Origin: Actinomycetes bacterium
GTDB lineage: Bacteria > Actinomycetota > Actinomycetes > Streptosporangiales > Streptosporangiaceae
Assembly (NCBI GenBank): GCA_021792405.1
Contig: JAJYUU010000026.1
Location: 1-40,148, forward strand
Direction: 5' to 3'
DNA length: 40,148 nucleotides
The notes under the pieces were generated by a model. That model saw only the letters and a program-made list of their open reading frames with translations, was not told the DNA's origin and searched no databases. The first letter of the stretch is position 1. Every line of letters starts with the position of its first letter. Made by a program: the position numbers and the translations under genes. Positions 4,533-36,797 of this stretch are shown here, piece by piece.

Positions 4533-6253
4533 CCGCGCGCTGCCCCGGCCCGCCGCGCCTGTGCCAGCAGCGCCTGGACGTGCTTGACGGCCTGGTCAGC
4601 CGGCACTCGCTCGCGCTCCCCGGTGCTGCGGCTAACCACCTCGACCAGGCCGTCAGCCAGGTCCCGGCTGCCGACGCTGATCCGGAACGGTGACCCGATC
4701 AGCTCGGCGTCCTTGAACTTGACGCCGGGCCGCTCATCGCGGTCGTCTAGGAGCACATCTGCGCCGGCCGCCAGCAGCTCAGCGTAGATCGACTCGGCAG
4801 CCAGCCGGACCGCCTCGTCCCTGACCGACACCATCGTCACAGTGACCTCGGCCGGTGCTACCTGGACCGGCCACTTCAGGCCGGCCTCGTCGTGGTGCAC
4901 CTGCGCGATGACGGCCATCGCGCGCTCGACGCCGATGCCGTAGCTGCCCATTATCGGGACGATCGGCGTGCCGTCCGGGCCGAGTACCGAGACTCCAAGC
5001 GCCGTCGTGAACCTGCGGCCGAGCTTGAAGATATGACCGACCTCGATGGCCCGGATGAGCTGCAGCGCCACTGCGCATCGCGGGCACGGCTCGCCGGCCG
5101 CTACCTCGCGCAGGTCGGCCCAGGTACCCACCCGGATATCACGGTCGACGTCGACGCCCGTCAGGTGCACGTCGTCGGTGTTCGCGCCAGTGGCCATGTT
5201 GCGACGGCCGCGCAGGGCCACGTCAGCGATGACCGGCAGGTCGGTGACACCGACTGCACCCAGGCTGCCGGGCAGCGCGCCGAGGGCGGCCAGGATCTCG
5301 TCCGGCTGCGCCGGGCGGATGTCGCCCACCCCGGTAGCGTCGATCAGCTTCTGGTCCTGCAGCTGATGGTCACCGCGCAGGAGGACGAGCGTGAGCTGAC
5401 CGTTCATCACCTGCACGAGGGTCTTGAGCTGCCGGTCGGCGGCCACGCCGTACTTGACCGCGAGGTCCTCGATAGTGCGCACGCCAGGCGTGTCAAGCCG
5501 CGCCGGCGCGGCCGGGCCCGGCTCGTCGTCGACGGGCGGCAGTGCGGACGTCGCTCGCTCGAGGTTGGCGGCGTAGTCGCAGTTCGGGCAGATCGCGACG
5601 AGGTCCTCGCCCGCCGGCGACGGGCACATGAACTCCAGCGAGTCCTTTCCGCCCATCGTCCCGTTCGACGCCTCGGCGGCGATAGCCGGGATGCCGAGAC
5701 GGGCGAAGATCCGCTCGTAGGCGCCCCGGTGCGCGTCGAATGACTTGTCCAGCCCGGCATCGTCCACGTCGAAGCTGTAGGAGTCCTTCATGGTGAACTC
5801 GCGCACCCGCAGCAGGCCGCTCTTCGGCCGCGCCTCGTCCCGGAACTTGGTCTGGAACTGGTACCAGAATTGCGGCAGCTCACGGTAGGAAGCCAGCTCG
5901 GCCGCCACGGTCGTGAAGATCTCCTCGTGGGTGAAGCCGAGCACCAGGTCCGTGCCCTTGCGGTCCTTCAGCCGGAACATGACGTCAACCGTCCCCAGCC
6001 GGCCGGTCCGCTCCCAGATCTCGGCCGGGTGCATGCACGGCAGCAGGAACTCCTGCGCGCCGATCGCGTTCATCTCCTCGCGGATGACCTCGATGATCTT
6101 GGCGCGCACCCGAATGCCGAGCGGCAGCATCGAGTAGTGACCTGCCATCAGCTGGCGGATGAAGCCGGCCCGCAGCAGCAGCCGGTGACTGGCCGCATCG
6201 GCGTCCGCCGGATCCTCTCGCAGGGTCGGGATGTGCAACTGTGACCAGCGCAT
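4529..6253 (-). CDS. proS: Prolyl-tRNA synthetase, bacterial type with editing domain
   Basis: A 574-residue class II aminoacyl-tRNA synthetase that charges tRNA-Pro with proline. The order is catalytic core part 1 (residues 1 to about 225), the YbaK-like INS editing domain (about 235-385) that hydrolyses mischarged Ala-tRNA-Pro, core part 2 with the motif 3 segment GSYGIGVERAMA, and the C-terminal anticodon-binding domain (about 475-574). Visible motifs include the GFTHEE proline-pocket loop (108-111) and the motif 2 region FRDEARPKSGLLRVREF (137-153). The ATG at 6253 has AGAAGG about 9 bp upstream. Length and domain order match the long bacterial ProS. I see no T-box in the leader. Confidence 0.97.
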   Translation of the reverse strand: MRWSQLHIPTLREDPADADAASHRLLLRAGFIRQLMAGHYSMLPLGIRVRAKIIEVIREEMNAIGAQEFLLPCMHPAEIWERTGRLGTVDVMFRLKDRKGTDLVLGFTHEEIFTTVAAELASYRELPQFWYQFQTKFRDEARPKSGLLRVREFTMKDSYSFDVDDAGLDKSFDAHRGAYERIFARLGIPAIAAEASNGTMGGKDSLEFMCPSPAGEDLVAICPNCDYAANLERATSALPPVDDEPGPAAPARLDTPGVRTIEDLAVKYGVAADRQLKTLVQVMNGQLTLVLLRGDHQLQDQKLIDATGVGDIRPAQPDEILAALGALPGSLGAVGVTDLPVIADVALRGRRNMATGANTDDVHLTGVDVDRDIRVGTWADLREVAAGEPCPRCAVALQLIRAIEVGHIFKLGRRFTTALGVSVLGPDGTPIVPIMGSYGIGVERAMAVIAQVHHDEAGLKWPVQVAPAEVTVTMVSVRDEAVRLAAESIYAELLAAGADVLLDDRDERPGVKFKDAELIGSPFRISVGSRDLADGLVEVVSRSTGERERVPADQAVKHVQALLAQARRAGAARG

Positions 6254-6366
6254 GGGTACAGGCCTTCTCGTCGTATCGGCGGGTTGCGGGCACTAAGGCC
6301 AGCGCCAGGGATAGTCGCGGAGGAGCGCAAGTCTAGAGCCCCGGCCCGGCCTGAGCCATCTAGATT

Positions 6367-6555
6367 GTGCTTGCGCGCCCGTGGGCGCCTCCCTTGACTC
6401 TACTTCGGCTGGCGCCTGGCCAAGACCGCCAGACCCGGGATCGCCAGCGGCCTATAAAATGGTGCGCATGCGGACATGCGCCGCCGAATGGCCCAGACTG
6501 CCTGTTTTGCCACCGGCGAGCGTTTGACCGGTTCCTGACCGGGCACCAAAACTGA
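6367..6555 (+). CDS. Possible zinc-ribbon micro-protein
   Basis: A short frame (up to 62 residues) ending in a convincing metal-binding pattern: WCACGH, eight residues, then CLFCHRR, which is two Cys pairs as in small zinc ribbons. The start is uncertain. GTG 6367 and TTG 6394 are in frame but neither has a clear ribosome site, and an AT-rich TATAAAAT lies inside the frame at 6453-6460. Its stop is one base before the next ATG (6557), so it could head a coupled three-gene set. The N-terminal half does not look coding, so the real product may be shorter or the ribbon may be a relic. Confidence 0.35.
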   Translation: MLARPWAPPLTLLRLAPGQDRQTRDRQRPIKWCACGHAPPNGPDCLFCHRRAFDRFLTGHQN

Positions 6556-6556
6556 C

Positions 6557-6790
6557 ATGCCGACGGACAGGTCCGCTCGCCGGGTGCTTTCCATCGCGAT
6601 GGGCATCGCGGCGATTTTCGACCTGACGGGCATGACCGTGTACAGCACGATGCGTCCAGTCCTTCCGCCCAGTCCGCCGCGCGCCGACGATCAGGATCCG
6701 TTCGGCTCGGCGATGAGCACGATCATGTCCGCCCATCGCGAGGCGGCCGGTCGTGCGCGTGATGAGAGCGGTGAGACGTTAGTCGCATGA
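6557..6790 (+). CDS. Small single-pass membrane protein, unknown
   Basis: A 77-residue frame with one hydrophobic segment (about residues 9-30, VLSIAMGIAAIFDLTGMTVY) preceded by Arg-Arg, then a polar acidic/basic tail. The ATG follows the preceding stop by one base and its own stop overlaps the next start as ATGA, which supports translation as part of a set. No ribosome site of its own is evident. Function unknown. The ATG at 6557 is kept because the TM segment begins only eight residues in. Confidence 0.5.
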   Translation: MPTDRSARRVLSIAMGIAAIFDLTGMTVYSTMRPVLPPSPPRADDQDPFGSAMSTIMSAHREAAGRARDESGETLVA

Positions 6791-7506
6791 CCGACATCAA
6801 CCGCGCGCCGACGTCCGCTGTGGCCGGTCCGCAGTACCAGGCCAGCCCGGCCGCGCAGGCGCAATCCCCCAGTCAGCAAATCCCCAGCCAGCCGTCCGTC
6901 GCGCAGCCCGGCGCCAGCGAGATCGCCGACGCCGTGCTCGACCGGATCGGCGACAAGGTCGCCGACAGCCGCGGACCTGCCGGGCAGCCAGCCCGGCAGC
7001 CCAGCATCAGCTCGGTCGACCAGGCGATCGCGCTCCGCGAGCAAGCGCCGGAGATGTACGACCTGTGGCTCACGATCGCCAAAGACAAGGCCGCGACCGA
7101 GAACTACGTCGAGCGGGCACCCTATGAGGTACCAGAACGGCTGGCGCAGTCGGGCCGGCCGCGCGCACTCGGCGCACTGGTCATCGTCCTGTCGTTCTGC
7201 GGCTACCTGGCCTGGCTCGGCGGCCCTGGCCCGTACATCGGCGGCCTGATCGCCATCCTCGACCTGGTCGTGATGTTCGGAATGTTCTTCGGGTTGCGGC
7301 CGGAGCGGCTGCCTGACCCGCAGGAGACCGAGCGTCGGCCACCCCGGCGCCGGTTACCTTCAGCACGGGCTAACCCCCCGCGGCTAACCCGGACCGCGGT
7401 CCAGCACCCGCCGCCGGCTCCCGGCTCCGCTGTGCGATCCTTGGCGGGGCCGGGCGGCCACGCCCGGCCGCAGGCCGGGTCTGGCCGGAGGTGCCCTGGT
7501 GCTTGA
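6787..7506 (+). CDS. Two-TM membrane protein, DUF2335-like layout
   Basis: A 239-residue frame coupled by ATGA to the gene before it. It has a Gln/Pro/Ser-rich disordered N-terminus (1-70), a helical segment (75-120: QAIALREQAPEMYDLWLTIAKDK...), then two hydrophobic helices (about 127-145 and 150-170) and an Arg/Pro-rich tail. A soluble helical part followed by two close TM helices is the layout of DUF2335-type proteins, but I cannot confirm homology. The last 60 residues are low-complexity and may not be translated as shown, since a 3' frameshift would end the protein soon after TM2. It overlaps the GTG of the amidohydrolase by 8 bp. Confidence 0.55.
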   Translation: MTDINRAPTSAVAGPQYQASPAAQAQSPSQQIPSQPSVAQPGASEIADAVLDRIGDKVADSRGPAGQPARQPSISSVDQAIALREQAPEMYDLWLTIAKDKAATENYVERAPYEVPERLAQSGRPRALGALVIVLSFCGYLAWLGGPGPYIGGLIAILDLVVMFGMFFGLRPERLPDPQETERRPPRRRLPSARANPPRLTRTAVQHPPPAPGSAVRSLAGPGGHARPQAGSGRRCPGA

Positions 7507-21403: not shown

Positions 21404-22903
21404 TCAGTCGAGCAGTTCCTCGACCGGCTTCACCCCGGCGGTACCGCGACGCAAGCGCCAGAACAGCGCGGCCACATACCACAGCAGCGCCAGGCCTGCT
21501 CCGTAGGCCACGACCTTGTCAGCAGCGTGGAACGGTCCGGGTACCGACAGGACGAAGATGATCAGCGCGCTGTACAGCAGCACGAAGATGATCACCGGCC
21601 AGGCCCAGCGGCCCAGCGAGAACGCGCCGGGGATCGAGTCCAGCGTCCGCCGCTTGTACGCATAGCCGGCCGTGATGAGGAAGTAGATGATGTACGGGAT
21701 GATCGCGGTCGCCCCGACCAGCGTCGCGAACGCGCTCGCCTGCAGGTAGCCGTACCAGGTCACGCCGATGTCGACGACGGCGAAGACCAGCAGGGCGACG
21801 ATCGGCGTCTGGGTGCTGGCGTTCACCTTCCGAAGCTGCGTGCTGAACGGCAGCATGTTGTCGCGCGACATCGAGTACGCCAGCCGCGCCTGCGCGCCGG
21901 CGCCGACCACGAGAATCGCGAACATCGAGAAGATGACGAACGCGATGAACACCTTGACCAGCCAGCCCGGCAGCCAGTACCCGGCGATCGCCAGCAGCGG
22001 CAGCGGCGCGGCCTCGACGGTCTTCAGGCTCGGGATCGCGACCGTGAAGCCGATGAGCGCGATCATGCCGAGCACGGCGGACCCCGCCACCGCGACGATG
22101 ACGCCGCGCGGCACGCTTTTGCGCGGGTTGACCGCGTCTTCGGACATGTCGGCGGCGAGCTCAAACCCGACCAGCGTGAAGGCGCCCAAGAGGCCAGCCA
22201 GCGCGAAGGCGTAGATGGTCGGGTTGTGGTAGACCGAGGTGGTGCTGGTCAGGATGCCAGCACCGTACGGTGTCGGCTTGGTCTTCGCCGCCCACAGGAT
22301 GAACAGCAGCACGCCGAACACCACGGTTCCGATGATCTCGGTGAACACGGCAAGGTTGTTCACTCGCGCGGCTACCTGGATGCTGATGATGTTGATGATC
22401 ACCGGCAGCACCATCAGGATGATCGCTACCCCGAACACCAGCCGCGCGCTCGGAGCATTGACGCCGAATTCGCTGAGCAGCAGTGGCGAGGCGACGCCGA
22501 GCATGATCGCGCCGCCGCCGACACTCATGTAGAGCAAGCCGGCAAACCCCACGAACCATCCGTAGGTCGAGTTCACCAGGCGCGCGCTCCACTGGTAGGC
22601 GTATCCGGCCAGCGGGATCCGGGTGCCGAGTTCGGCGACGACGAGCGCGATCATCAAGTTGCCTACCCCGACGATCGGCCAGGTCCAGATCGCCGCCGGC
22701 CCCCAGTAGGAAAGTCCGAAGCCGTAGTTGAGGAAGATCCCGGTGGTGATCGAGATGATCGAGAACGCGATGGCGAACATCGAGAAGAAGCGCAGCGACC
22801 TGCGCAGCTCAGGCTTGTAACCCGCCTTTGCCAGGATGGCCTCCGCGCCGTTGCCGGTCGCCACGGCCGCTCCGGCCGGCCTGGCCGATTCGTCAGTGCT
22901 CAT
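21404..22903 (-). CDS. APC superfamily amino acid/amine permease
   Basis: A 499-residue transporter with about 12 hydrophobic helices, starting with FFSMFAIAFSIISITTGIF near residue 40. It belongs to the APC superfamily (amino acid/amine:cation symporters). The GFELAADMSEDAVNPRKSVP segment, between helices 6 and 8, is typical of the APC family. ATG 22903 overlaps the aminotransferase stop as ATGA and GGCGGAACC precedes it. As the last gene of the aldolase-kinase-aminotransferase operon, it probably imports the compound that the operon degrades. Substrate specificity cannot be read from the sequence. Confidence 0.9.
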   Translation of the reverse strand: MSTDESARPAGAAVATGNGAEAILAKAGYKPELRRSLRFFSMFAIAFSIISITTGIFLNYGFGLSYWGPAAIWTWPIVGVGNLMIALVVAELGTRIPLAGYAYQWSARLVNSTYGWFVGFAGLLYMSVGGGAIMLGVASPLLLSEFGVNAPSARLVFGVAIILMVLPVIINIISIQVAARVNNLAVFTEIIGTVVFGVLLFILWAAKTKPTPYGAGILTSTTSVYHNPTIYAFALAGLLGAFTLVGFELAADMSEDAVNPRKSVPRGVIVAVAGSAVLGMIALIGFTVAIPSLKTVEAAPLPLLAIAGYWLPGWLVKVFIAFVIFSMFAILVVGAGAQARLAYSMSRDNMLPFSTQLRKVNASTQTPIVALLVFAVVDIGVTWYGYLQASAFATLVGATAIIPYIIYFLITAGYAYKRRTLDSIPGAFSLGRWAWPVIIFVLLYSALIIFVLSVPGPFHAADKVVAYGAGLALLWYVAALFWRLRRGTAGVKPVEELLD

Positions 22904-24198
22904 GTGGTTCCGCCTTCGTGTTGTGGTGCCCGGCCTTCGTGTTGTCGTAGCTGCACGGCGGCAAAAGCCTCGTCGGTCGCGGCGAGGACCTTGGCCAGAT
23001 CTGCGTCGGTCATCGCCGCAGAGATAAACCAGTTGTGGCGCGGATGCAGGTATGCGCCGGACCGGATCGCCGCCGCCGCGAACGTGCCGGCCAGTTCGTG
23101 ACCGCGGTCTCCCGCGAAGGTCAGGTACGGCATGGCGGCAGGCCCGGTGTAGTTGATCTCGATGCCCCGCGCCGCGGCCTGCTGCAGGATCCCGGCGCGC
23201 AGCGCGCTTCCGCTCCGGTCCATGGCCTCGATGGCACCCTCGGCGCGCAGCGCGCCGATAGTGGCGATCGCCGCGGCCATCGCGGCGGCCGAAAACCAGA
23301 AGGAGCCGGTCGCGAAGATGCTGGCGGCCGCGTCGGCGTAGTCGCCGCAGCCCAGCACGGCGGCAAGCGGATGACCGTTCGCGATGGCCTTGCTCCATGC
23401 CGACAGGTCAGGCAGCACGCCGATGGGCTCCCAGCTCGACCCGAGGTGCAGCCGGAAGCCGCAGCGCACATCGTCCAGGATCAGCGCCGCGCCGGTCCGC
23501 GTGCACAGCTCGCGCAAGCCGGCGGCGAACGCCGGGTCAACGAGTTCCTGGTCGAAGCCCGCATCGTGCTTGAACGGGCTGACCACGATGCCCGCCAGGT
23601 CCTGGCCGGCCGCCGCGGCTGCCGCCGTGACCGAGTCCAGGTCGTTGAACGTGTAATAGCCGAGGTTGGCGCGATCCGCCGCGGTAACGCCGGCCAGCCG
23701 CGGCGTGCACCATGGCGCGGCCCCGTGGTAGGCGCCGGTGGCCACCAGAATCCGTGACCGGCCGGTGTGCGCCCGGGCGATCGTGACGCACATCGTGGTC
23801 GCGTCGGTGCCGTTCTTGGCGAACATCGCCCAGTCCGCGTGCCGCACGGTGCCGACCAGCAGCTCGGCGAGCTCCACCATCACCGGTCCCGGCCCGTTCT
23901 GGCAGTCGGCGAGTTCGGCCTGCGCGGCCGCGGCGGCCTCGACGGCAGGATGCCGGTGCCCGAGCACGACCGGGCCGTAGCTGCACATCAGGTCGACGTA
24001 CTCGTTGCCATCGACGTCCCAGACGCGCGCGCCGCGTCCCGCCCGCATGAACTGGGGATATTCCGGCGGCAGCGGGCCCGCCGACTGATGCCCGTACATC
24101 CCGCCGGGAATCACCGCCCTGGCCCTGCGGCGCAGTTGCTGATCCGCGTTCCGCGGCCTGAAGTCCCGGTTGTCCGCTCGGGCTAGCTGATCCGTCAT
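22900..24198 (-). CDS. Class III PLP aminotransferase, glutamate-1-semialdehyde aminomutase-like
   Basis: A 432-residue fold-type I PLP enzyme. The catalytic lysine is Lys270 in SAWSKAIANGHPLAAVLG, the cofactor Asp is at 242/243 (LILDDVRCGFR), and NGTDATTMCVTIAR (129-142) is the phosphate-binding helix. The N-terminus (RARAVIPGGMYGHQ) resembles GSA aminomutase and related beta/omega-aminotransferases. True HemL is unlikely, since the gene sits in a catabolic operon. It would transaminate an imported amine or amino acid. The start overlaps the kinase stop as ATGA, and its stop overlaps the permease start likewise. The C-terminal tail has a duplicated QHEG coding segment. Confidence 0.87.
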   Translation of the reverse strand: MTDQLARADNRDFRPRNADQQLRRRARAVIPGGMYGHQSAGPLPPEYPQFMRAGRGARVWDVDGNEYVDLMCSYGPVVLGHRHPAVEAAAAAQAELADCQNGPGPVMVELAELLVGTVRHADWAMFAKNGTDATTMCVTIARAHTGRSRILVATGAYHGAAPWCTPRLAGVTAADRANLGYYTFNDLDSVTAAAAAAGQDLAGIVVSPFKHDAGFDQELVDPAFAAGLRELCTRTGAALILDDVRCGFRLHLGSSWEPIGVLPDLSAWSKAIANGHPLAAVLGCGDYADAAASIFATGSFWFSAAAMAAAIATIGALRAEGAIEAMDRSGSALRAGILQQAAARGIEINYTGPAAMPYLTFAGDRGHELAGTFAAAAIRSGAYLHPRHNWFISAAMTDADLAKVLAATDEAFAAVQLRQHEGRAPQHEGGTT

Positions 24199-25226
24199 GC
24201 CGTCCGCTCCGCTGTGCTGATTGCCGTTGTGCTTGCGCCGAGGAAGTCGAGTACCTGACGCAGGCTCTGCAGGCCGGCGTCAGAGCCGAGACCTGTCGCC
24301 ACCAGCGCACCGCAGGCGACGCCCAGCCGGGCAGCGTCGATGGGGTCGCAGCCGAGCAGCAGGCCGGTCAGCATGCCCGCGTCGAACCCGTCGCCGCAGC
24401 CGGTGGTATCGACCACGGGCACCGCGGGTGCCGGGAGGTGGATCAGGTTTGAGGCGCTGCGGGCGCCACCACGCCTGGCGGTAACCAGGCAGCCGTCCGC
24501 GCCAAGCGTCACCGCCACGCCGCCGGTGCCAAGTGCGAGCACATCAGCGACCGCTAGCTCCAGGTCTGCACGGCCGGTCAGGGCGAGAAGCTGATCGGCG
24601 TTCGGCCAGAACCAGTCCGCGCCGCCGAGCGCCGCGGTGATCCGGGCGAAGTCCTGCAAGCTGCCCGGATGCAGAACGTCGACCGCGACCAGCGCGCCGC
24701 CGTCCTTTGCTGCCGTCACGACGGCCGCCAGATCCGGACCGGACAGGCCGGACAGCGCGTCGGGACCGCCGAGCAGTACCGCATCGAATCCGGCCAGTGC
24801 GGCCAGGTCGATGTCGCCGATCCTGAGCAGCCTGGTGGCGCCGGGCACGTGCAGGGCAGGACGCTCGCCATTCGGCCTGATCGGCAGGATGGTCGCGGAC
24901 GTCTGGGCCGCGGTTGTCCTGACGATGCCGCCGGTGTCGACGCCATGAGCGGCCAGCGCGGCGATGAGGATGTCGGCCAGCAGGTCGGTTCCGACCGCTC
25001 CGATCGAGAACACGCTGTTGCCGAGCTTGGCCAGGTCGACGGCCGTGCCGCCAGCGGTTCCGGCCGCGGTGGCCCGGATCTCGGTGAGCCTGGCGCTGCC
25101 CTGCCCGGCGGGTATCGACTCAACCGGGCGGCCGAGCACGTCCAGGATGTGCGGCCCGATGACCGCTACCCTGCGTGCCGCTGCGCTGCGGGGCGCGGCC
25201 GCGCCGTGCTCCGGGCCGGCGGTCAT
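24195..25226 (-). CDS. PfkB family carbohydrate kinase
   Basis: A 343-residue ribokinase-fold sugar kinase. The C-terminal signature is VVDTTGCGDGFDAGML, which supplies the anion hole and catalytic Asp; here the usual DTTGAGD has Cys for Ala. The N-terminal substrate-side Gly-rich element is GTAGGTAVDLAKLG. PfkB kinases phosphorylate sugars, nucleosides or polyols with ATP. ATG 25226 overlaps the aldolase stop as ATGA and excludes an upstream GTG extension lying inside the aldolase gene. In this operon it probably phosphorylates a hydroxylated intermediate to make it a substrate for the aldolase. The actual sugar or polyol is not known. Confidence 0.88.
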   Translation of the reverse strand: MTAGPEHGAAAPRSAAARRVAVIGPHILDVLGRPVESIPAGQGSARLTEIRATAAGTAGGTAVDLAKLGNSVFSIGAVGTDLLADILIAALAAHGVDTGGIVRTTAAQTSATILPIRPNGERPALHVPGATRLLRIGDIDLAALAGFDAVLLGGPDALSGLSGPDLAAVVTAAKDGGALVAVDVLHPGSLQDFARITAALGGADWFWPNADQLLALTGRADLELAVADVLALGTGGVAVTLGADGCLVTARRGGARSASNLIHLPAPAVPVVDTTGCGDGFDAGMLTGLLLGCDPIDAARLGVACGALVATGLGSDAGLQSLRQVLDFLGASTTAISTAERTA

Positions 25227-25882
25227 CGCTGCCGCCGTTGCCCGTAGCGGCGCCGTCGCGCTTCGGCGGCGACCTCGTCCAGCTCGGCCTGGGACAAGAT
25301 CCTCGGCACGCCGTGAGCGCGGGCAAGCCGGTAGACCCTGGCCAGCCACTCCAGCAGCACCGCCCGGTCGTAGGCCTCCGGCAGCGTCGCGCCGTAGCAG
25401 ACTGCCCCGTGGTTCTGCAGGATCACGGCGCTGCGCCCGGCCAGCGCGGCCACCGCAGCCTCGGCCAGCCCGGCCGAACCGAACCTGGCGTAGGCTGCCA
25501 CCCGGACCGGGCCGCCGAGCCCGGTGATCGCGTAGTGCACGGCCGGCAGCTCAGCCGAGGTGGCGGACACCGCGATCACCTCGGCTGAATGCGTGTGCAC
25601 CACTGCCGCCGCGCCGGTGGCCGCGTAGACAGCCAGGTGCATAGGCAGCTCGCTGGACGGGGTTTCCGGCGCGTCGACTTCCTCGCCAGTCAGCGTCGTC
25701 ACGCAGATGTCGGCCGGGACCAGGTCGGCATAGCTCACCCCGGACGGGGTGATCGCCACCATGTCGCCCGCCCGCACGCTCAGGTTCCCCGCCGCGCCGA
25801 CGGCCAGCCCGTCCGCGACCATCCGCCCGCAGTAGCTCACTAGCTGCTCGCGGGCGGTTTGCAGGTCAGCGTTGCCAGGCAT
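25223..25882 (-). CDS. Class II aldolase/adducin family protein
   Basis: A 219-residue zinc aldolase of the fuculose/ribulose-phosphate aldolase (AraD/FucA) type. Metal ligands are the HTH pair in VVHTHSAEV and the His in ILQNHGAV; the catalytic acid is the Glu in PSSELPMHLAVY. AAGNLSVRAGDMVAITPSGV is the phosphate-binding segment. It would cleave or epimerise a phosphorylated keto compound. ATG 25882 has no ribosome site, and the candidate -10 element places transcription start at or next to it, so the mRNA may be leaderless. It is first in the operon and divergent from the TetR gene. Confidence 0.88.
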   Translation of the reverse strand: MPGNADLQTAREQLVSYCGRMVADGLAVGAAGNLSVRAGDMVAITPSGVSYADLVPADICVTTLTGEEVDAPETPSSELPMHLAVYAATGAAAVVHTHSAEVIAVSATSAELPAVHYAITGLGGPVRVAAYARFGSAGLAEAAVAALAGRSAVILQNHGAVCYGATLPEAYDRAVLLEWLARVYRLARAHGVPRILSQAELDEVAAEARRRRYGQRRQR

Positions 25883-29795: not shown

Positions 29796-30461
29796 TCAGA
29801 CCGGCCAGGTTTCCCGCCGGTAGCCCATCTCCCAGAACATCCACTCGTAACGACTGGTCGCGCGGAAGCGGCGCTGAATGCGCTCGCGCTCCGCAACTGC
29901 GACCTGCTGGCCGAGCCGGTCGGTGACGGCGATAACCTCGCGCACCTCAGCGCCGAACTCTTCGGCCGCGTAGGTGTCGATCCAGCGCTGGTACGCAGGA
30001 TCGGGCGAGCCCCGCTGAAGCAGGTGCTTGCCTACCTCCCAGTAGATCCAGTAGCACGGCAGCACGGCGCCGACGCCGTCGCCGTACGACTCGCCAGCGG
30101 CGGCCAGCAGGTAACTGGTGTAAGCCGAAGTGGTGGGAGCTTCATCCGCGGCGGCGGCCACACCGGGATCGATGTCAAGGTCGGCCAGCAGCGACTCGTG
30201 CAGGCTCATCTCGACGGCGACCACGCCTGCGGCATGACGCGCGAACATCTCCGTCTCCGCGGGAACGGCGGCCCGGCTGGCCACCGCTGCCAGCGCTCGC
30301 GCGTACTTCCGCAGGTACAGCGCGTCCTGGATGACGTAAAACTCGAACGACTCACGCGGCAGGCTGCCATCGCTCAGGCCGGTGACAAACGGGTGGTCCA
30401 GGATCGCGGCGTAGATGCCGGCGATCCCGCCCCACAACTTTGCGCTGAAGCTGTCAGCCAT
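29796..30461 (-). CDS. tenA: TenA family aminopyrimidine aminohydrolase (thiaminase II)
   Basis: A 221-residue all-helical TenA protein. Expected active-site residues are present: Asp46 in YVIQDALYL, Cys136 in LPCYWIYWEVG, and Glu211 in WMFWEMGY, plus the surrounding Tyr residues. TenA salvages thiamin by hydrolysing aminomethyl-pyrimidine degradation products to HMP. ATG 30461 has GGGAG 6 bp upstream. It lies 36 bp after the aminotransferase-epimerase fusion gene on the same strand, though no functional link is obvious. No thiamin riboswitch is evident. Confidence 0.92.
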   Translation of the reverse strand: MADSFSAKLWGGIAGIYAAILDHPFVTGLSDGSLPRESFEFYVIQDALYLRKYARALAAVASRAAVPAETEMFARHAAGVVAVEMSLHESLLADLDIDPGVAAAADEAPTTSAYTSYLLAAAGESYGDGVGAVLPCYWIYWEVGKHLLQRGSPDPAYQRWIDTYAAEEFGAEVREVIAVTDRLGQQVAVAERERIQRRFRATSRYEWMFWEMGYRRETWPV

Positions 30462-30497: not shown

Positions 30498-33170
30498 CTA
30501 CCGCTGCCACCTGATGGCCCGCAGCCGGTCGGCTGACACGTAGCCGTTCTCGGCGAACCATTGCGCCGAGTCCTCGATTGCCAGCCGCGCTGGCCGCGAC
30601 TTATGCCCGATCTCGGCACGAGCCCGGTCATCGTTAAAGATCATCTTCGTCGTCGACATGCGCGCCGCCTCGAGCGGTACGTGCGGCTCGCGGCGCAGCA
30701 GCCTGCCCTCGACGAGATCGGAGGCCAGCCCGGCAGCGGCGACGACCCGTCGCGGCACCGCCCAGCGGGGCGTGGGCAGGCCGGTGCCGTCGGCGAGCGT
30801 CTGCAGGATCTCGCGCATCGTCATGTTCTCGCCGCCGAGGATGTAGCTGCGGCCCTGGCGCCCGTGCTCGAGCGCGGCAACGTGACCGAGCGCGAGATCA
30901 TCCACATGGCACACGTTCAGGGCAGTGTCCACGAACCCGGGCATCCGGCCATTGAGGAAGTCGGCCACTACCTTGCCGGTCGGGGTCGGCGCCCGGTCAC
31001 CAGGGCCGAGCGGGAACGTCGGCAGCACCACCGTGACGTTCAGGCCCTCGCCGGCCGCGCGCAGCACCTCGTGCTCCGCCGCGAACTTCGTGCGCTTGTA
31101 GTGGCCGAACAGGTGGCCGACATCGGCATAGCAGGTCTCGTCCGCTGGCTGACCATGCCGGGTACGGTCGAGGCCGAGCACGCCAACCGTGGAGGTGTAC
31201 ACCAGGCGCTCAGCGCCGGCCGCCCGCACGGCGTCGATGACGTTCAGCGTGCCGCCGACGTTAACCTCGTGAAAGATCCGCGGATCGCGAGCCCAGAACC
31301 GGTAGACGGCCGCCAGGTGGAAGACATACCGCGCGCCGGCGACCGCCGACCGGACCGCCGCGGCATCGCGGATATCGACGACTGCGCGTTCCACCTCAAG
31401 GCCGTCGAGGTTGGCGTCCTGGCCGCCCGGCTCGGTAACGGCAACCACCTGCGCGCCCTTGGCCAGCACCGCGCGGGTCACGGCCGACCCGATGAATCCG
31501 CTTGCGCCGGTGATGACTACCCGGTCGCCGGGCTCGATCGGCGCCACAGCCGGGCTGTATCCGGCATCGGCGCTGACGCCATCGGCCCGGTCTGCCCGCT
31601 GCCGCGCTTCCCCGGCCGGGCGAGTCCCGGCCACCGGGCGTTCCCGTACTGTCGCTGCGGCGGCCGGACCCGCGCCCGCCGCCGCCCGATCCGCGCCTGC
31701 CTGCGGTGACGTGCTGGTCGCGGCCCCGTCATGGCGGGGAACGCCCGCAGCGGGGCCGGCCACCGGATGAGGGCTGGCGATGCTGCGCGGCGACTTGCGG
31801 CGGATGAGGCCGCGGGCCATGGTGCGGCCGAACTCGAAGCTGAGCCCGGGGCCGCGCTGTGCGTCCGTGAGGACGTCGTCCAGCGCTGCGACGAAGTAAT
31901 CGACTTCTTGCGGCCCGGAGATCAGCGGCGGCAGCAGCTTGACGATGTTGACGTTGTCCGCCGCCACTTGCGTGATGATCTTGTGCCGGTGGAACAGCGG
32001 GACGACGACCATCTGCGAGAACATGCCGGTCCGCAGCCGCTCCATGGCGCGGAACCGGCGAGCGGCAGACCCCGGCCGCGGTTCGCCGAACTCGATCCCG
32101 ATCATCAGCCCGAGGCCGCGGATGTCGTGGATCACATCGTGCTTGGCGGCCAGCCCGCGCAGCTTGCCCTGCAGGTCGGCACCGGTGCGCTCGGCGCGCC
32201 CGACGATGTCCTCGTCGTCGAACGCCGCGAGCGTGGCGAGCCCCGCGACCATGGCCAGCTGATTGCGCCCGAAGGTCGTGGAGTGCTTGAGCGCGTCCTG
32301 CATCGAGTGATGCACGCTCGCGAAGATCTTGTCGGTGGTCAGCATCGCGCCGACCGGAACGTAGCCGCCGGACAGCGCCTTCGAGACCGTGATGATGTCG
32401 GGCTCCAGGCCCCAGTGCTCGTGGCAGAAGAACTTGCCGCTGCGGCCGAGCCCGGTCTGCACCTCGTCGGTGACCAGCAGGGTGCCATGCCGGCGGCAGA
32501 GTTCCTGGGCTGCCCGCCAGTACTCGCCGGGCGCGCAGTAGACGCCCTTGCCCTGGATCGGCTCGACGATGAACGCGGCGACGTCGCCCGCGCGCAGTTG
32601 CTGCTCCAGCGCGGCCAGGTCGCCGAACGGGACGGCAGCGCTCTCCAGCAGCGTGCCGAAGCCCTTGCGGAACTCCTTGCCGCCGTTCAGCGCGAGGGCG
32701 CCGGTGGTCAGGCCGTGGAAGGAGTGGTCAGCGTGCAGGATCCTGGACCGCTGCGTGAAGTGCCGGGCGAACTTGATCGCGGCCTCGATCGATTCGGCCC
32801 CGGAGTTGCAGAAGAACACGCGGTTGATGGCCGGGTGGGTGCGGGCGACGAGTTGCTCGGCCAGCAGACCGGGCAGCAGCGCGCAGTCCATCTGCACCAT
32901 GTTGGGCAGGTCCAGGTCGAGTGCCTGGTGAAGCGCCGCCTTGACGGCCGGATGGCTGCGGCCCAGAGCATAAACCCCGAAACCAGACAGGAAGTCAAGA
33001 TACCGCTGGCCGGCATCGTCGTACAGGTAACTGCCCTCACCGCGAACGTAGTTGCGATCGAACCCGAGGGTCCTCAGCGTCCGCGCAAGCTGGCTGTTCA
33101 TGAACCGCTCGTGCAGGGCGAAGTTCTCTCCGGAACGCTCGGCGAACGTGCGGGCAACATCGAAGGGCAT
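30498..33170 (-). CDS. Fusion: class III aminotransferase + HpnA-like NAD(P)-dependent epimerase
   Basis: An 890-residue protein with two complete enzyme domains. Residues 1 to about 452 are a class III PLP aminotransferase: Lys264 in TVSKALSGGYVPVGAML, Asp235 in VTDEVQTGLG, and CNSGAESIEAAIKFAR at 121-136. Residues about 453-545 are a disordered Ala/Gly/Pro/Arg linker. Residues about 548-890 are an extended SDR: TGASGFIG (554-561), LAAVYRFWARDP, and the Y691-x3-K695 catalytic pair. The FHLAAVYRFWARDP segment resembles hopanoid-associated epimerase HpnA, and the aminotransferase resembles HpnO-type enzymes (from family knowledge). ATG 33170 has GAGGAT upstream. The combined role in aminohopanoid side chains is inferred. 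Confidence 0.85.
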   Translation of the reverse strand: MPFDVARTFAERSGENFALHERFMNSQLARTLRTLGFDRNYVRGEGSYLYDDAGQRYLDFLSGFGVYALGRSHPAVKAALHQALDLDLPNMVQMDCALLPGLLAEQLVARTHPAINRVFFCNSGAESIEAAIKFARHFTQRSRILHADHSFHGLTTGALALNGGKEFRKGFGTLLESAAVPFGDLAALEQQLRAGDVAAFIVEPIQGKGVYCAPGEYWRAAQELCRRHGTLLVTDEVQTGLGRSGKFFCHEHWGLEPDIITVSKALSGGYVPVGAMLTTDKIFASVHHSMQDALKHSTTFGRNQLAMVAGLATLAAFDDEDIVGRAERTGADLQGKLRGLAAKHDVIHDIRGLGLMIGIEFGEPRPGSAARRFRAMERLRTGMFSQMVVVPLFHRHKIITQVAADNVNIVKLLPPLISGPQEVDYFVAALDDVLTDAQRGPGLSFEFGRTMARGLIRRKSPRSIASPHPVAGPAAGVPRHDGAATSTSPQAGADRAAAGAGPAAAATVRERPVAGTRPAGEARQRADRADGVSADAGYSPAVAPIEPGDRVVITGASGFIGSAVTRAVLAKGAQVVAVTEPGGQDANLDGLEVERAVVDIRDAAAVRSAVAGARYVFHLAAVYRFWARDPRIFHEVNVGGTLNVIDAVRAAGAERLVYTSTVGVLGLDRTRHGQPADETCYADVGHLFGHYKRTKFAAEHEVLRAAGEGLNVTVVLPTFPLGPGDRAPTPTGKVVADFLNGRMPGFVDTALNVCHVDDLALGHVAALEHGRQGRSYILGGENMTMREILQTLADGTGLPTPRWAVPRRVVAAAGLASDLVEGRLLRREPHVPLEAARMSTTKMIFNDDRARAEIGHKSRPARLAIEDSAQWFAENGYVSADRLRAIRWQR

Positions 33171-33344: not shown

Positions 33345-36300
33345 CTAGCGGAAGTCGCGGCTGCGCGCGGCCGCGACGACGCGGAGCCGCTCGAGCCTGG
33401 TGGCTAGCAGGCTGACAGCACCGTCCAGCCGCTCGACCCGGCCGTGAATGAGCAGCGCGCTGGCGGCTACCCCGATCTTGCGGAACCGCTGCCATACATC
33501 CGGCGGGCAGATGATGTTCGCCATCCCGGTCTCGTCCTCCAGGCTGAGGAAGACCACGCCACGCGCGGTGCCTGGCTGCTGTCGGTGCGTGATCAGCCCG
33601 CCGACAAGCACGCTCCGGCCGTTCCCCGCACCCGCCAGGTGAGCGGCAGGCAGCGCCCCCCGCTCATCGAGCATGGCCCTGATGTGCTCGATCGGGTGCG
33701 TTCCGTAGGTCCCGGTCGCCCACAGGTCGGCAAAAGTCTCCTGCGCTGCCGTCATCGCCGGCAGCGGCGGAGCGGTCATGCCCAGCGTCGTGCCGGGCAG
33801 TTGATCCGCCCGCACGGTGGCCGCCGCGCCAGCCGCCCATAGCGCCTCACGCCTGCTCACGCCGAAGCAGCCGAACGCGCCGCCCATGGCCAGCGCCTCC
33901 AGCGCGGCGACCGGCACCGTGGTACGCCGGGCAAAATCCTCCAGGTCCGCATACGGCTGGCCGGCCACGATCTCCCCCGCTGCCCCGGTGCCCAAGTTGC
34001 GGACTTCAGCCAGGCCAAGCCTGATCGCCGGCTGGCCCCCGGCAGGCAGCCCGCCGCTTGGGACATCGGCCGGCCAGCGGCCGTTCCCGGATTCTTCGTT
34101 CTTTTCCAAGGTCGCCAGCACGCCACTGGCGTTCACGTCCACGCCGCGGACAGTGATGCCGTGCCGGCGGACGTCGCTGATGAGGCTGGCAGGCGCGTAG
34201 AAACCCATCGGCTGGGCGCGCAGCAGCGCAGCGGTGAACGCGGCCGGGTAATAGCACTTCAGCCAGGCGCTGGCGTAGACCAGGTAGGCGAAGCTGATCG
34301 CGTGTGACTCCGGGAATCCGTAGCTGGAGAACGCCAGGATCTTGCCGTAGATGTCCTCCGCGACCTCGAGCGAGATACCGCGCTCGGCCATCCCGGCCAG
34401 TAGCCGCTCGCGCAGTTCCTCGATCCGTTCGGGCGCGCGCTTGGAGCTCATCGCCTGGCGCAGCCGGTCGGCCTCGGTCGGGCTGAACCCGGCGCAGTCG
34501 ATGGCGATCTGCATCATCTGCTCCTGGAACAGCGGAACGCCGAGCGTCTTGCCGAGCGCATGCTCCATCAGCGGATGGGGCAGGTCCGGCTGCTCGTCGC
34601 CGTGCCGGCGGCGCATGTAGGGATGCACCGAGCCGCCCTGGATCGGGCCCGGCCGGATCAGCGCCACCTCCACGACCAGGTCGTAGAACTTCTCCGGCCG
34701 CAGCCGCGGCAGCGTCGCCATCTGAGCCCGCGACTCGACCTGGAATACCCCGACGGTGTCAGCCTTCTGCAGCATCGCGTAGACGCCCGGATCCTCCTGC
34801 GGGATCGAGGCCAGCGTCCAGCGCACCCCGTGCGCCTGCTCCACGAGTTCGAAGCAGTCCCGCAGCGCGGTCAGCATGCCGAGGCCCAGCAGGTCGAACT
34901 TGACCAGGCCCGCGTACGCGCAGTCGTCCTTGTCCCACTGCAGCACGCTGCGGCTGCGCATCCGCGCCCACTCCACCGGGCACACCTCTCCCACTGGCCG
35001 GTCGCAGATCACCATCCCGCCGGAGTGAATCCCGAGGTGCCGCGGCAGCCGCTGCATCCGGCCCGCCAGCTCCACAACCGAGTCGGGAACGCCCGCGTCC
35101 GGGGGAACTGGCTGCCCGGGCCCGTATTGCCGGGGGCCGACCTGCCGGGACCACTCGTTCTGCTGCTCCGGCTCGTAGCCGAGCGCGCGCCCTGCGTCCC
35201 TGATGGCCATCCGCGGCCGGTAGCTGATCACGTTTGCCACCTGGGCGGCATTCTGGCGGCCGTACCTGGAGTAGACGTGCTGGATGACTTCCTCGCGGCG
35301 CCGGTGCTCGATGTCCAGGTCGATGTCCGGCGGCCCGTCCCGGCCCGCGGACAGGAACCGCTCGAACAGCAGCCCGTGCCGCACCGGATCGACGCTGGTG
35401 ATGCCGAGCGCGTAGCAGACCGCCGAGTTCGCCGCCGAGCCGCGGCCCTGGCACAAGATGCCGCTGTCCTCGCAGAACTCCACGATCTCGTGCACGATCA
35501 GGAAGTAGCCGGGGAAGCCCAGCTGCTCGATGACGCCCAGCTCGCGACTGATCTGCGCGTAAGCGCCCGCGACGCGCTCCGCCTCCGGGGTGCCGTAGCG
35601 GGCGGGCGCCTTCCTGGTGACCAGTTCACGCAGCCAGCTAGCCTCGCTGTGACCGTCAGGGACGTCGAAGTCCGGCAGCTTCGGCGCGATGACGTGGAAG
35701 TCGAATGCGCAGTCGGCGGCTAGCTCTGCCGTCCGCTCCGCGACGCCGGGGTAGCGGTCCAGCCGGGCGGCCATCTCCGCGGCCGAGCGCAGGTAACTGC
35801 CGCCGGACGCGGCCAGCCAGCCGTCCATCTCGTCCAGGCTGAACCGGGCCCTGATGGCGGCAAGCGCTTGCGCCAGCCTCGCGTCCTGGGGGGCGGCGTA
35901 GTGCACGTTCCCGGTGGCAATGGTGTCCAGGCCAGCCGCTGCCGCCAGTGCTGTCAGCGCGTCGTTGCACTCGTCGTCGGCTGGGTGGTTGCCGACCGTG
36001 AGCTCGACCTTGACGTTCTCCCGGCCGAACGCGCCGGTCAGCCTGGCCAGTTCGCGGGCAGCCGCATCGGGGCCGTGCGCCGCCAGCGCCGCCCGGACCG
36101 CGCCCTTGCGGCAGCCGGTAAGGACCACCCAGTGCCCGTCGTGCGCGTCGGCGAGGGCCGGCTCGTCGTAGACCGGCAGGCCCTTCTCTCCCCCGGCCAG
36201 TTGCGCGGCACTGATGACCCGGCAGAGCCGCCGGTACCCCTCCGGGTCGCGAGCGAGGACGAGCAGGTGCCGGCCTGCCGGGTCGGGAACGCCCGCCCTG

Positions 36301-36797
36301 GGCGTCCCGGCAGGCCGGGGCGTCCCGGCAGGCCCGACGGCGGGGCGGCGGGCTCCGGGGCGGTTACCGGCCAGCACTGTCCGGTTGGCCAGGTCCAGGC
36401 TGAGCTCGGCGCCGAACACGGTGCCGAGGCTGATGCCGCCGTCCCGCAGCCGCGCCGCAGCCTGGGCGAACTGCGGTACCCCGTACATGCCGTCGTGATC
36501 GGTGATCGCCAGCGCCGACAGGCCGCGTGCCGCTGCCTCGCATACCAGGTCAGCCGGGCTCGAAGCGCCGTCAAGGAAGCTATAGGAGGAGTGGCAGTGC
36601 AACTCCGCTCCGGCAACCTCCCGGCTGGCCTCCCTGGCAGCCCCGGACTGCTTGTCTCCCGCCGGCGCACCGTCCCCCGCCGGCGCACCGTCTCCCGCCG
36701 GCGCACCGTCCCCCGCCGGCGCCTGGCCAGTGTCCTTGCCCCAGGACAGGCGGCGCTCGAACTCCCGCCACGGCACCGGCGGATTGTCCCAGCCCAT
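33345..36797 (-). CDS. dnaE2: Error-prone DNA polymerase DnaE2 (ImuC)
   Basis: A 1150-residue C-family polymerase. It carries an N-terminal PHP domain (ELHCHSSYSFLDGASSP, AITDHDGMYG), the polymerase palm with the catalytic PDIDLDIEH and the KFDLLGLGMLTAL segment, IRPGPIQGG and FQEQMMQIAI motifs, and a C-terminal OB fold (VLVGGLITHRQQPGTARGVV). DnaE2 works with ImuA' and ImuB in SOS mutagenesis in mycobacteria and relatives; those partners are not in this window. ATG 36797 has GGAGGG 7-8 bp upstream. An Ala/Gly/Asp-Pro repeat tract precedes the PHP domain, and a Pro/Gly/Arg-rich insert (about 145-180) interrupts it. A LexA-like box lies upstream. Confidence 0.95.
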   Translation of the reverse strand: MGWDNPPVPWREFERRLSWGKDTGQAPAGDGAPAGDGAPAGDGAPAGDKQSGAAREASREVAGAELHCHSSYSFLDGASSPADLVCEAAARGLSALAITDHDGMYGVPQFAQAAARLRDGGISLGTVFGAELSLDLANRTVLAGNRPGARRPAVGPAGTPRPAGTPRAGVPDPAGRHLLVLARDPEGYRRLCRVISAAQLAGGEKGLPVYDEPALADAHDGHWVVLTGCRKGAVRAALAAHGPDAAARELARLTGAFGRENVKVELTVGNHPADDECNDALTALAAAAGLDTIATGNVHYAAPQDARLAQALAAIRARFSLDEMDGWLAASGGSYLRSAAEMAARLDRYPGVAERTAELAADCAFDFHVIAPKLPDFDVPDGHSEASWLRELVTRKAPARYGTPEAERVAGAYAQISRELGVIEQLGFPGYFLIVHEIVEFCEDSGILCQGRGSAANSAVCYALGITSVDPVRHGLLFERFLSAGRDGPPDIDLDIEHRRREEVIQHVYSRYGRQNAAQVANVISYRPRMAIRDAGRALGYEPEQQNEWSRQVGPRQYGPGQPVPPDAGVPDSVVELAGRMQRLPRHLGIHSGGMVICDRPVGEVCPVEWARMRSRSVLQWDKDDCAYAGLVKFDLLGLGMLTALRDCFELVEQAHGVRWTLASIPQEDPGVYAMLQKADTVGVFQVESRAQMATLPRLRPEKFYDLVVEVALIRPGPIQGGSVHPYMRRRHGDEQPDLPHPLMEHALGKTLGVPLFQEQMMQIAIDCAGFSPTEADRLRQAMSSKRAPERIEELRERLLAGMAERGISLEVAEDIYGKILAFSSYGFPESHAISFAYLVYASAWLKCYYPAAFTAALLRAQPMGFYAPASLISDVRRHGITVRGVDVNASGVLATLEKNEESGNGRWPADVPSGGLPAGGQPAIRLGLAEVRNLGTGAAGEIVAGQPYADLEDFARRTTVPVAALEALAMGGAFGCFGVSRREALWAAGAAATVRADQLPGTTLGMTAPPLPAMTAAQETFADLWATGTYGTHPIEHIRAMLDERGALPAAHLAGAGNGRSVLVGGLITHRQQPGTARGVVFLSLEDETGMANIICPPDVWQRFRKIGVAASALLIHGRVERLDGAVSLLATRLERLRVVAAARSRDFR
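36655..36726 (-). repeat. Four tandem 18-bp units in the dnaE2 5' coding region
   Basis: Four units of 18 bp (plus-strand consensus TCTCCCGCCGGCGCACCG, alternating TCTCC and TCCCC) encode the six-residue repeat PAGDGA. They lie in a disordered segment before the PHP domain. The last unit diverges at its end. The near-identity points to slippage; it is unlikely to affect catalysis. Confidence 0.85.

Follow-up and report, generated by a model that had tools for sequence, protein, structure and literature searches.

An HpnO-HpnA gene fusion in a genus of uncultured soil actinobacteria and its possible role in hopanoid side-chain chemistry

Structure of the fusion gene

The subject of this analysis is a gene fusion in a 40,148-nucleotide stretch of DNA (the window) from a bacterium of the Streptosporangiaceae (assembly GCA_021792405.1, contig JAJYUU010000026.1). 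The window is the entire contig C297 of a 5.39-Mb genome that is 98% complete (G000). In the fusion, a class III aminotransferase (AT) of HpnO type is followed by a short-chain dehydrogenase/reductase (SDR) of HpnA type. The features are listed in Table 1.

The existence of this single-chain fusion had been proposed from the letters of the window (the original prediction), and it was borne out. One 890-residue frame matched two Pfam profiles: PF00202 (Aminotran_3) at residues 40–434 with 291.8 bits and PF01370 (Epimerase, NAD-dependent epimerase/dehydratase fold) at residues 551–779 with 116.2 bits. The key residues were intact at the positions claimed (Lys264, TGASGFIG at 554 and Y691-KRT-K695), and the SDR part shows the hallmarks of an extended SDR (TGxxGFIG and YxxxK). 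The linker, predicted at ~95 residues without a frame break, had about 90 residues and no stop. It is rich in Ala, Pro, Gly and Arg.

In the AlphaFold model, the predicted local distance difference test (pLDDT) was <50 at residues 453–541; some stretches within the AT part were likewise <50. Confidence in the model of the entire protein is moderate (pLDDT 67.8, predicted template modelling score 0.48). The SDR domain modelled alone reached a pLDDT of 94.6.

Table 1. Positions of the fusion gene, its parts and other features (window coordinates unless a locus is named; MAG, metagenome-assembled genome)
Feature	Position	Strand	Basis or remarks
hpnO-hpnA fusion gene	30498..33170	-	890-aa frame; ATG start, no internal stop
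HpnO-type class III AT part, residues 1–460 including C-terminal tail SFEFGRTMARGLIRRK	31791..33170	-	PF00202, Lys264, tail comparison
Low-complexity linker, residues 461–545, predicted disordered	31536..31790	-	pLDDT, composition, fast evolution
HpnA-type extended SDR part, residues 546–890 and stop; TGASGFIG at 554, Y691/K695	30498..31535	-	TIGR03466 367.2 bits, AlphaFold
Glu580 codon, first residue past strand beta2	31431..31433	-	Arg there in 30/33 unpaired HpnA-like proteins
TenA/thiaminase II family gene, 36 bp downstream of fusion	29796-30461	-	Also next to fusion in L018
DNA polymerase III alpha-type (DnaE-type) gene, 174 bp upstream of fusion	33345-36797	-	Also upstream in L017, L018, L019
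Consecutive genes for an amino acid permease, a second class III aminotransferase and a PfkB kinase, overlapping frames	21404-25349	-	
HpnG-IspH fusion in hopanoid cluster	L097 (G000:C117) 5702-7339	-	Also L166:11144-12622 (Acidimicrobiaceae MAG)

Distribution and authenticity of the fusion

The same single frame was found in the window and at the loci L017, L018 and L019, and also at L020, L172 and L173, where the 5' end is cut by the end of the locus or contig. Seven genomes of the genus share the fused architecture. Across the seven frames, the aligned domain ends were 49 to 113 residues apart.

In a survey of the genus and family (up to 40 candidates scored per genome), an HpnA match at 1e-80 was found in seven of nine same-genus genomes, our own included, and each best match lay within a fused frame. 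The two genomes without a match are 77% and 72% complete. There was no match at this threshold in the 16 genomes of the family's other genera or in the 16 remaining, more distant genomes. The loci L017–L020 lie in G001–G004, which are G438, G439, G436 and G441 of this survey (identical places). The fusion is real and, within this survey, confined to one genus of uncultured soil actinobacteria. G438, which has the fusion, also carries a second, partial HpnA-like frame (L178, G438:C225) that is 72% identical to the SDR of the window.

Both domains are under purifying selection. Between the window and L019, dN and dS were 0.102 and 0.675 in the AT part and 0.131 and 0.899 in the SDR part. The linker evolves fast (pN 0.43 for the same pair). 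The two genes of the relatives overlap by 4 bp, meaning that one frame error could fuse them, and the joined frame might have arisen from two neighbouring genes through an error of sequencing or assembly. We consider this very improbable because the fusion occurs in seven genomes with linkers that differ in length and stay in frame. Moreover, selection acts on both domains.

An internal restart of the SDR was rejected. The candidate GTG at residue 542 (window and L018) had no obvious Shine-Dalgarno sequence in the 24 bases read. The aligned Val is encoded by GTC in L017 and L019 and is replaced by Ala in L020.

Two-gene relatives

Twenty-six actinobacterial loci (L017–L042) were obtained from the best 80 of 178 relatives. 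Four were fused, 19 had separate, adjacent AT and SDR frames and three had the AT alone (L026, L038 and L041). L041 ends inside the gene and comes from the same isolate as L020; it was not counted as a separate genome. In the Acidimicrobiaceae, AT and SDR are adjacent genes.

Separate pairs were usually tightly coupled: in 18 of 20 (the 19 pairs and L163), the AT stop overlapped an ATG or GTG by 4 bases, and by coordinates this codon lies in the SDR frame. The exceptions read CTGA (L030) and TTGA (L031).

The AT part was 70–73% identical to L021–L025. In the AT tree, from which L020 and L041 were left out, the fused group was nested among Acidimicrobiaceae rows (support 91/84 with L022, L023, L025 and L026). 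As the outgroup branches were very long and the tree was rooted at the midpoint, only its inner groups were used. Because of this nesting, we read the two-gene state as ancestral.

The aminotransferase part

Among 72,556 plasmid records, the two best matches of the AT were Streptomyces genes (53–54% identity over 98–100%); among the 25 matches listed of 1,991 records, the others had ≤39.3% identity. The annotated Streptomyces match (WP_121548890.1, S. fungicidicus) is annotated merely as aspartate aminotransferase family. It is the last gene of the cluster hpnC-hpnD-hpnE-polyprenyl synthetase-shc-(hpnG-like)-hpnH-ispG-dxs-AT, where shc encodes squalene-hopene cyclase (SHC). In that record, the hpnG-like gene bears a different name; the corresponding gene of L160 reaches 77.5 bits on TIGR03468, which is below the cut-off. 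Around the other Streptomyces match (L158), no annotation is given.

The neighbourhood of relatives in two further groups was similar. In the verrucomicrobial locus L045, a standalone AT is followed by HpnN-like (578 bits) and HpnG-like (110 bits) genes, both below cut-off, and by HpnH (over cut-off) and shc. At L038 (Acidimicrobiaceae), the AT has hpnC/D/E-, FPPS- and SHC-like genes no more than about 10 kb away. In the 15 of 54 verrucomicrobial loci taken into the tests, the AT genomes had SHC over cut-off in 14 cases and HpnH in 14.

The clade has a common C-terminal tail, SFEFGRTMARGLIRRK in the window and MWEFGRTLVKQAVANR in L159, where it is the native C-terminus of a Streptomyces HpnO. 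By eye, it was not seen at the ends of three distant aminotransferases or of the second aminotransferase of the window. The fusion point lies directly past this tail. The tail may form a membrane-touching helix.

No HpnO model was among the best 25 of 100 NCBIfam matches. PigE ranked first, as it did for the Streptomyces AT. Among solved structures, PigE (PDB 4ppm) is nearest to the AT part in sequence and leads the fold matches of AT type. It differs in that the matched part comprises residues 397–751 of 861, while it is N-terminal in the window, and in that PigE belongs to a prodigiosin-precursor pathway.

Ornithine/acetylornithine aminotransferase was rejected as an identity. Its models were far below their cut-offs among the same 25 matches, and the gene from the hopanoid cluster was far closer than the other plasmid matches listed. 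The HpnO-type assignment of the original prediction is supported by the best annotated plasmid match, which closes a Streptomyces hopanoid cluster. The AT shares with Streptomyces HpnO 53% identity over the domain, a similar C-terminal tail and the same best NCBIfam model. It differs in having a second enzyme at its C-terminus and in lying on another contig than the hpn cluster.

The SDR part

The SDR domain scored 367.2 bits on TIGR03466 (HpnA; cut-off 367.65) and 363.6 bits within the whole protein. Two same-genus copies exceeded the cut-off (G442 with 369.6 and G443 with 368.8). The fused SDR was the only strong HpnA match in G000, where all 55 candidates were scored and the next reached 63 bits.

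The closest solved structure was 3wj7 (Gox2253), with an E value of 2.8e-71 by sequence, 39% identity and a TM score of 0.83 by fold. The matched part of the 3wj7 chain itself scored 509 bits on TIGR03466, well over the cut-off. Gox2253 reportedly reduces C7–C10 aldehydes with NADPH, and its Arg42 is said to set the NADPH preference. The second-best NCBIfam model was SdmB (204 bits against its own cut-off of 600). SdmB is described in the available part of PMC10202945 as an NADP-dependent reductase in sterol C-4 demethylation.

The original prediction had called this part an HpnA-like epimerase. The HpnA type was supported; 'epimerase' is better replaced by oxidoreductase. As the nearest solved structure, reported to be an aldehyde reductase, also scores as HpnA, an oxidoreductase is the probable identity of HpnA, and 'sugar epimerase', the name that TIGR03466 carries, is probably a misnomer. 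The window SDR resembles HpnA, including Gox2253, in a TIGR03466 score just short of the cut-off, its similarity to 3wj7 and its catalytic Tyr and Lys. It differs by a Glu instead of an Arg at the cofactor position and by its fusion to HpnO, which it directly follows in relatives.

The cofactor-site residue

Glu580 lies directly past strand beta2 (574–579 in the whole model and 30–35 in the model of the SDR domain). Of 26 paired or fused SDRs, 25 had a Glu at this position; the exception was L164 (Arg). The SDRs of L172 and L173, outside the 26, likewise had Glu. In 33 unpaired SDRs, a set that includes distant SDRs, Arg was found in 30, Leu in three and Glu in none. All nine unpaired HpnA-like SDRs beside shc in the phylum sample carried Arg. 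L039 was omitted as too short. The criterion of an Arg after beta2 was derived here from the 33 unpaired proteins and has no published definition.

An acidic residue after beta2 commonly indicates a preference for NAD rather than NADP. It also fits NAD+-bound epimerases, and HpnA might be a true epimerase of this kind that alters a stereocentre in the ribosyl side chain, acting either ahead of HpnO or following it. This would agree with the family name of TIGR03466, with the many UDP-glucose epimerases among the 50 listed fold matches and with the annotated nucleotide-sugar epimerase 2x4g, which came second by sequence and by fold. We consider it unlikely. The best match by both measures was Gox2253, cinnamoyl-CoA and dihydroflavonol reductases ranked high among the structure matches, SdmB was the second NCBIfam model and the unpaired HpnA-like proteins mostly keep the NADP-type Arg. 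The oxidoreductase reading is used below.

In the SDR tree, the paired Glu-type proteins formed one group of 24 (support 100/99). L164 stood apart, beside shc-linked proteins (100/97); therefore, a second, independent AT-SDR pairing is possible in this case, although the branch is long. L164 (G378:C23) and L149 represent a more distant pair of AT and SDR neighbours in which the cofactor position carries Arg.

Hopanoid genes in the genome and in relatives

In G000, the hopanoid genes were found on contig C117. SHC (757 bits) and HpnH (526 bits) were both over cut-off. Two proteins matched HpnD, one just under the cut-off (272 bits) and one under it (166 bits), and further proteins were read as HpnE- and FPPS-like. 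Between SHC and HpnH lies a 545-residue frame that combines an HpnG-like part (52.5 bits, far short of the cut-off at 187.1) with IspH (298 bits, over cut-off). Altogether, the genome carries shc, hpnH and hpnC/D/E/G-like genes away from the fusion. Of the 21,935 bases of C117, 20,000 were read, and no aminotransferase was recognised in them. With the fusion on C297 and shc on C117, the HpnA part is not beside shc or hpn genes, as anticipated for a gene away from a classical cluster. G000 is probably able to produce hopanoids with side chains, and in its case the link to hopanoids has fairly good support.

The affinities of these genes were mixed. HpnH of G000 was 77% identical to Streptomyces and 66–71% to three Acidimicrobiaceae clusters, the identities of SHC, HpnC and HpnD did not discriminate between the two, and HpnG and the HpnG-IspH fusion sided with the Acidimicrobiaceae. 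Because of this mixed picture, we only suggest that the AT-SDR pair may have been acquired separately from the core hopanoid genes. A clean story of separate acquisition from the Acidimicrobiaceae was borne out only in part.

All five fused genomes tested (of seven) had shc. Across the 25 actinobacterial AT genomes (those of L017–L040 and L042), SHC over cut-off, HpnH (1e-30) and HpnD (1e-25) were found in 12 each. SHC was clearly commoner in the AT genomes (12 of 25) than in the phylum sample (30 of 396 genomes), two sets that were sampled and thresholded differently. The two AT-only genomes (L026 and L038) both had SHC.

Several observations weigh against a hopanoid role of the pair. At these thresholds, none of the three proteins was found in 12 of the 25 genomes (G006, G008, G013, G014, G016–G021, G023 and G024), and all 12 had the pair. 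The pair loci concerned are L022, L024, L029, L030, L032–L037, L039 and L040, to which L163 (G389) can be added with SHC searched at 1e-100 and HpnH not searched. In the pair genomes G389 and G378 (each 96% complete), HpnD and SHC (1e-100) were not found; HpnH was not searched. The fused genome G001 (L017) had SHC and HpnD, and HpnH was not found at 1e-30. In the AT tree, SHC-bearing and SHC-less genomes adjoin (L023/L022 and L042/L040). HpnO also occurs without HpnA: 11 genomes of family f3 with SHC had no HpnA match at 1e-60 (five candidates scored per genome), and the two f3 loci fetched (L160 and L161) carry the AT. Only two of the 15 verrucomicrobial AT genomes had an HpnA match better than 1e-100. 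The idea that the pair tracks hopanoids failed: of 23 genomes with AT and SDR, ten had SHC over cut-off, 12 had none of SHC, HpnH and HpnD, and in one (G005) a fragment of HpnH at the end of a contig was all that was found.

Hence, the pair might act on another lipophilic or polyol aldehyde or alcohol, with the hopanoid genes of G000 being coincidental or the pair being borrowed from a non-hopanoid pathway. The 12 pair genomes without detected shc, hpnH and hpnD speak for this. Moreover, the nearest neighbours at L163 and L040 were read as a DMT-type transporter and a Gfo/Idh protein, with lipid genes not seen, and PigE, which ranks first among the NCBIfam models for the AT, is a transaminase that acts in the synthesis of a prodigiosin precursor. 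However, PigE is the best model of the Streptomyces AT itself, relatives of the AT lie in or near hopanoid clusters in three groups (Streptomyces, verrucomicrobial L045 and Acidimicrobiaceae L038) and shc was present in every fused genome tested. In addition, most of the shc-less genomes are MAGs, and shc, hpnH and hpnD tend to lie on a single contig, which can be lost from a bin as a whole. On balance, another substrate appears doubtful to us. Either binning frequently fails to capture a single hopanoid cluster, or the pair can function in the absence of hopanoids as well. Our confidence in the hopanoid reading is moderate, mainly because these two options cannot be told apart.

Proposed function

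Our preferred reading, with a probability of roughly 55%, is that the fusion encodes a bifunctional enzyme for the C-35 alcohol/aldehyde/amine chemistry of the hopanoid side chain. The HpnH and HpnG proteins of contig C117 would yield ribosylhopane, which in its open-chain form is an aldehyde at C-35. With pyridoxal phosphate on Lys264, the N-terminal HpnO domain would convert this aldehyde into 35-aminobacteriohopanetriol. The C-terminal HpnA domain would be an NAD(H)-dependent oxidoreductase (Tyr691/Lys695) that interconverts the same aldehyde and the primary alcohol bacteriohopanetetrol (BHT). Because Glu580 stands in place of the usual NADP-type Arg, the oxidising direction is favoured: BHT would be oxidised to the aldehyde, which the tethered HpnO domain would then aminate.

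What the sequences show directly is the domain architecture, its conservation, the relationship of the AT to aminotransferases from hopanoid clusters, the presence of hopanoid genes in G000 and the contrast between Glu and Arg; the substrate, the cofactor, the direction and any benefit of the tether are what we infer. Substrate channelling, as suggested in the original prediction, was not supported: the linker is predicted to be disordered and evolves fast. Nor was a formyl-hopane intermediate, with nothing either for or against it.

A wider scheme is more tentative. HpnA may be the missing C-35 aldehyde/alcohol oxidoreductase, with the Arg type using NADPH to turn ribosylhopane into BHT. A subfamily that is co-translated with HpnO or fused to it may have switched to NAD and run the reverse step, from stored BHT to aminobacteriohopanetriol. 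Lineages in which hopanoids were lost may have kept the pair for another lipid.

Through the fusion, HpnA is connected with a side-chain intermediate that is already known, which is a clue to its function. Gox2253, which scores as HpnA, supplies a reported chemistry (aldehyde reduction) and a named cofactor residue. As an intermediate, a chemistry and a residue are given by the fusion and Gox2253, the question of HpnA function is testable on a set of just two or three proteins in purified form. Where the pair occurs and hopanoid genes were not detected, this points either to another substrate or to a limitation of MAGs.

In the available parts of the literature, HpnO converts ribosylhopane to aminobacteriohopanetriol (PMC12583986), and HpnO of alphaproteobacteria was studied genetically (Welander et al. 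2012, cited there). According to the same 2025 survey, as far as available, neither the function of HpnA nor the enzyme for the step from ribosylhopane to BHT is established. HpnA is suspected in this step in the available part of PMC5462960, which also refers to evidence that Burkholderia does not depend on hpnA for BHT; the latter point argues against our reading. Hopanoid polyols serve as biomarkers (PMC12583986, available part), which makes the enzymes that interconvert them relevant to the interpretation of sediments.

An HpnO-HpnA fusion was not found in the available parts of the open-licence literature on hopanoid side-chain enzymes. The words 'fusion' and 'fused' are absent from the available part of PMC12583986, and the fusion named in that of PMC5462960 is hpnCD. 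Like the HpnG-IspH fusion, HpnCD is a fusion within hopanoid biosynthesis; both join other enzymes. The parts are known; judged by this literature, the joining of HpnO and HpnA, the overlapping two-gene form and the switch to Glu appear to be new.

Neighbouring genes

The genes on either side of the fusion and a row of three further genes of the window are included in Table 1. The DNA polymerase III alpha-type protein upstream of the fusion has a short GAPAGD repeat near its N-terminus.

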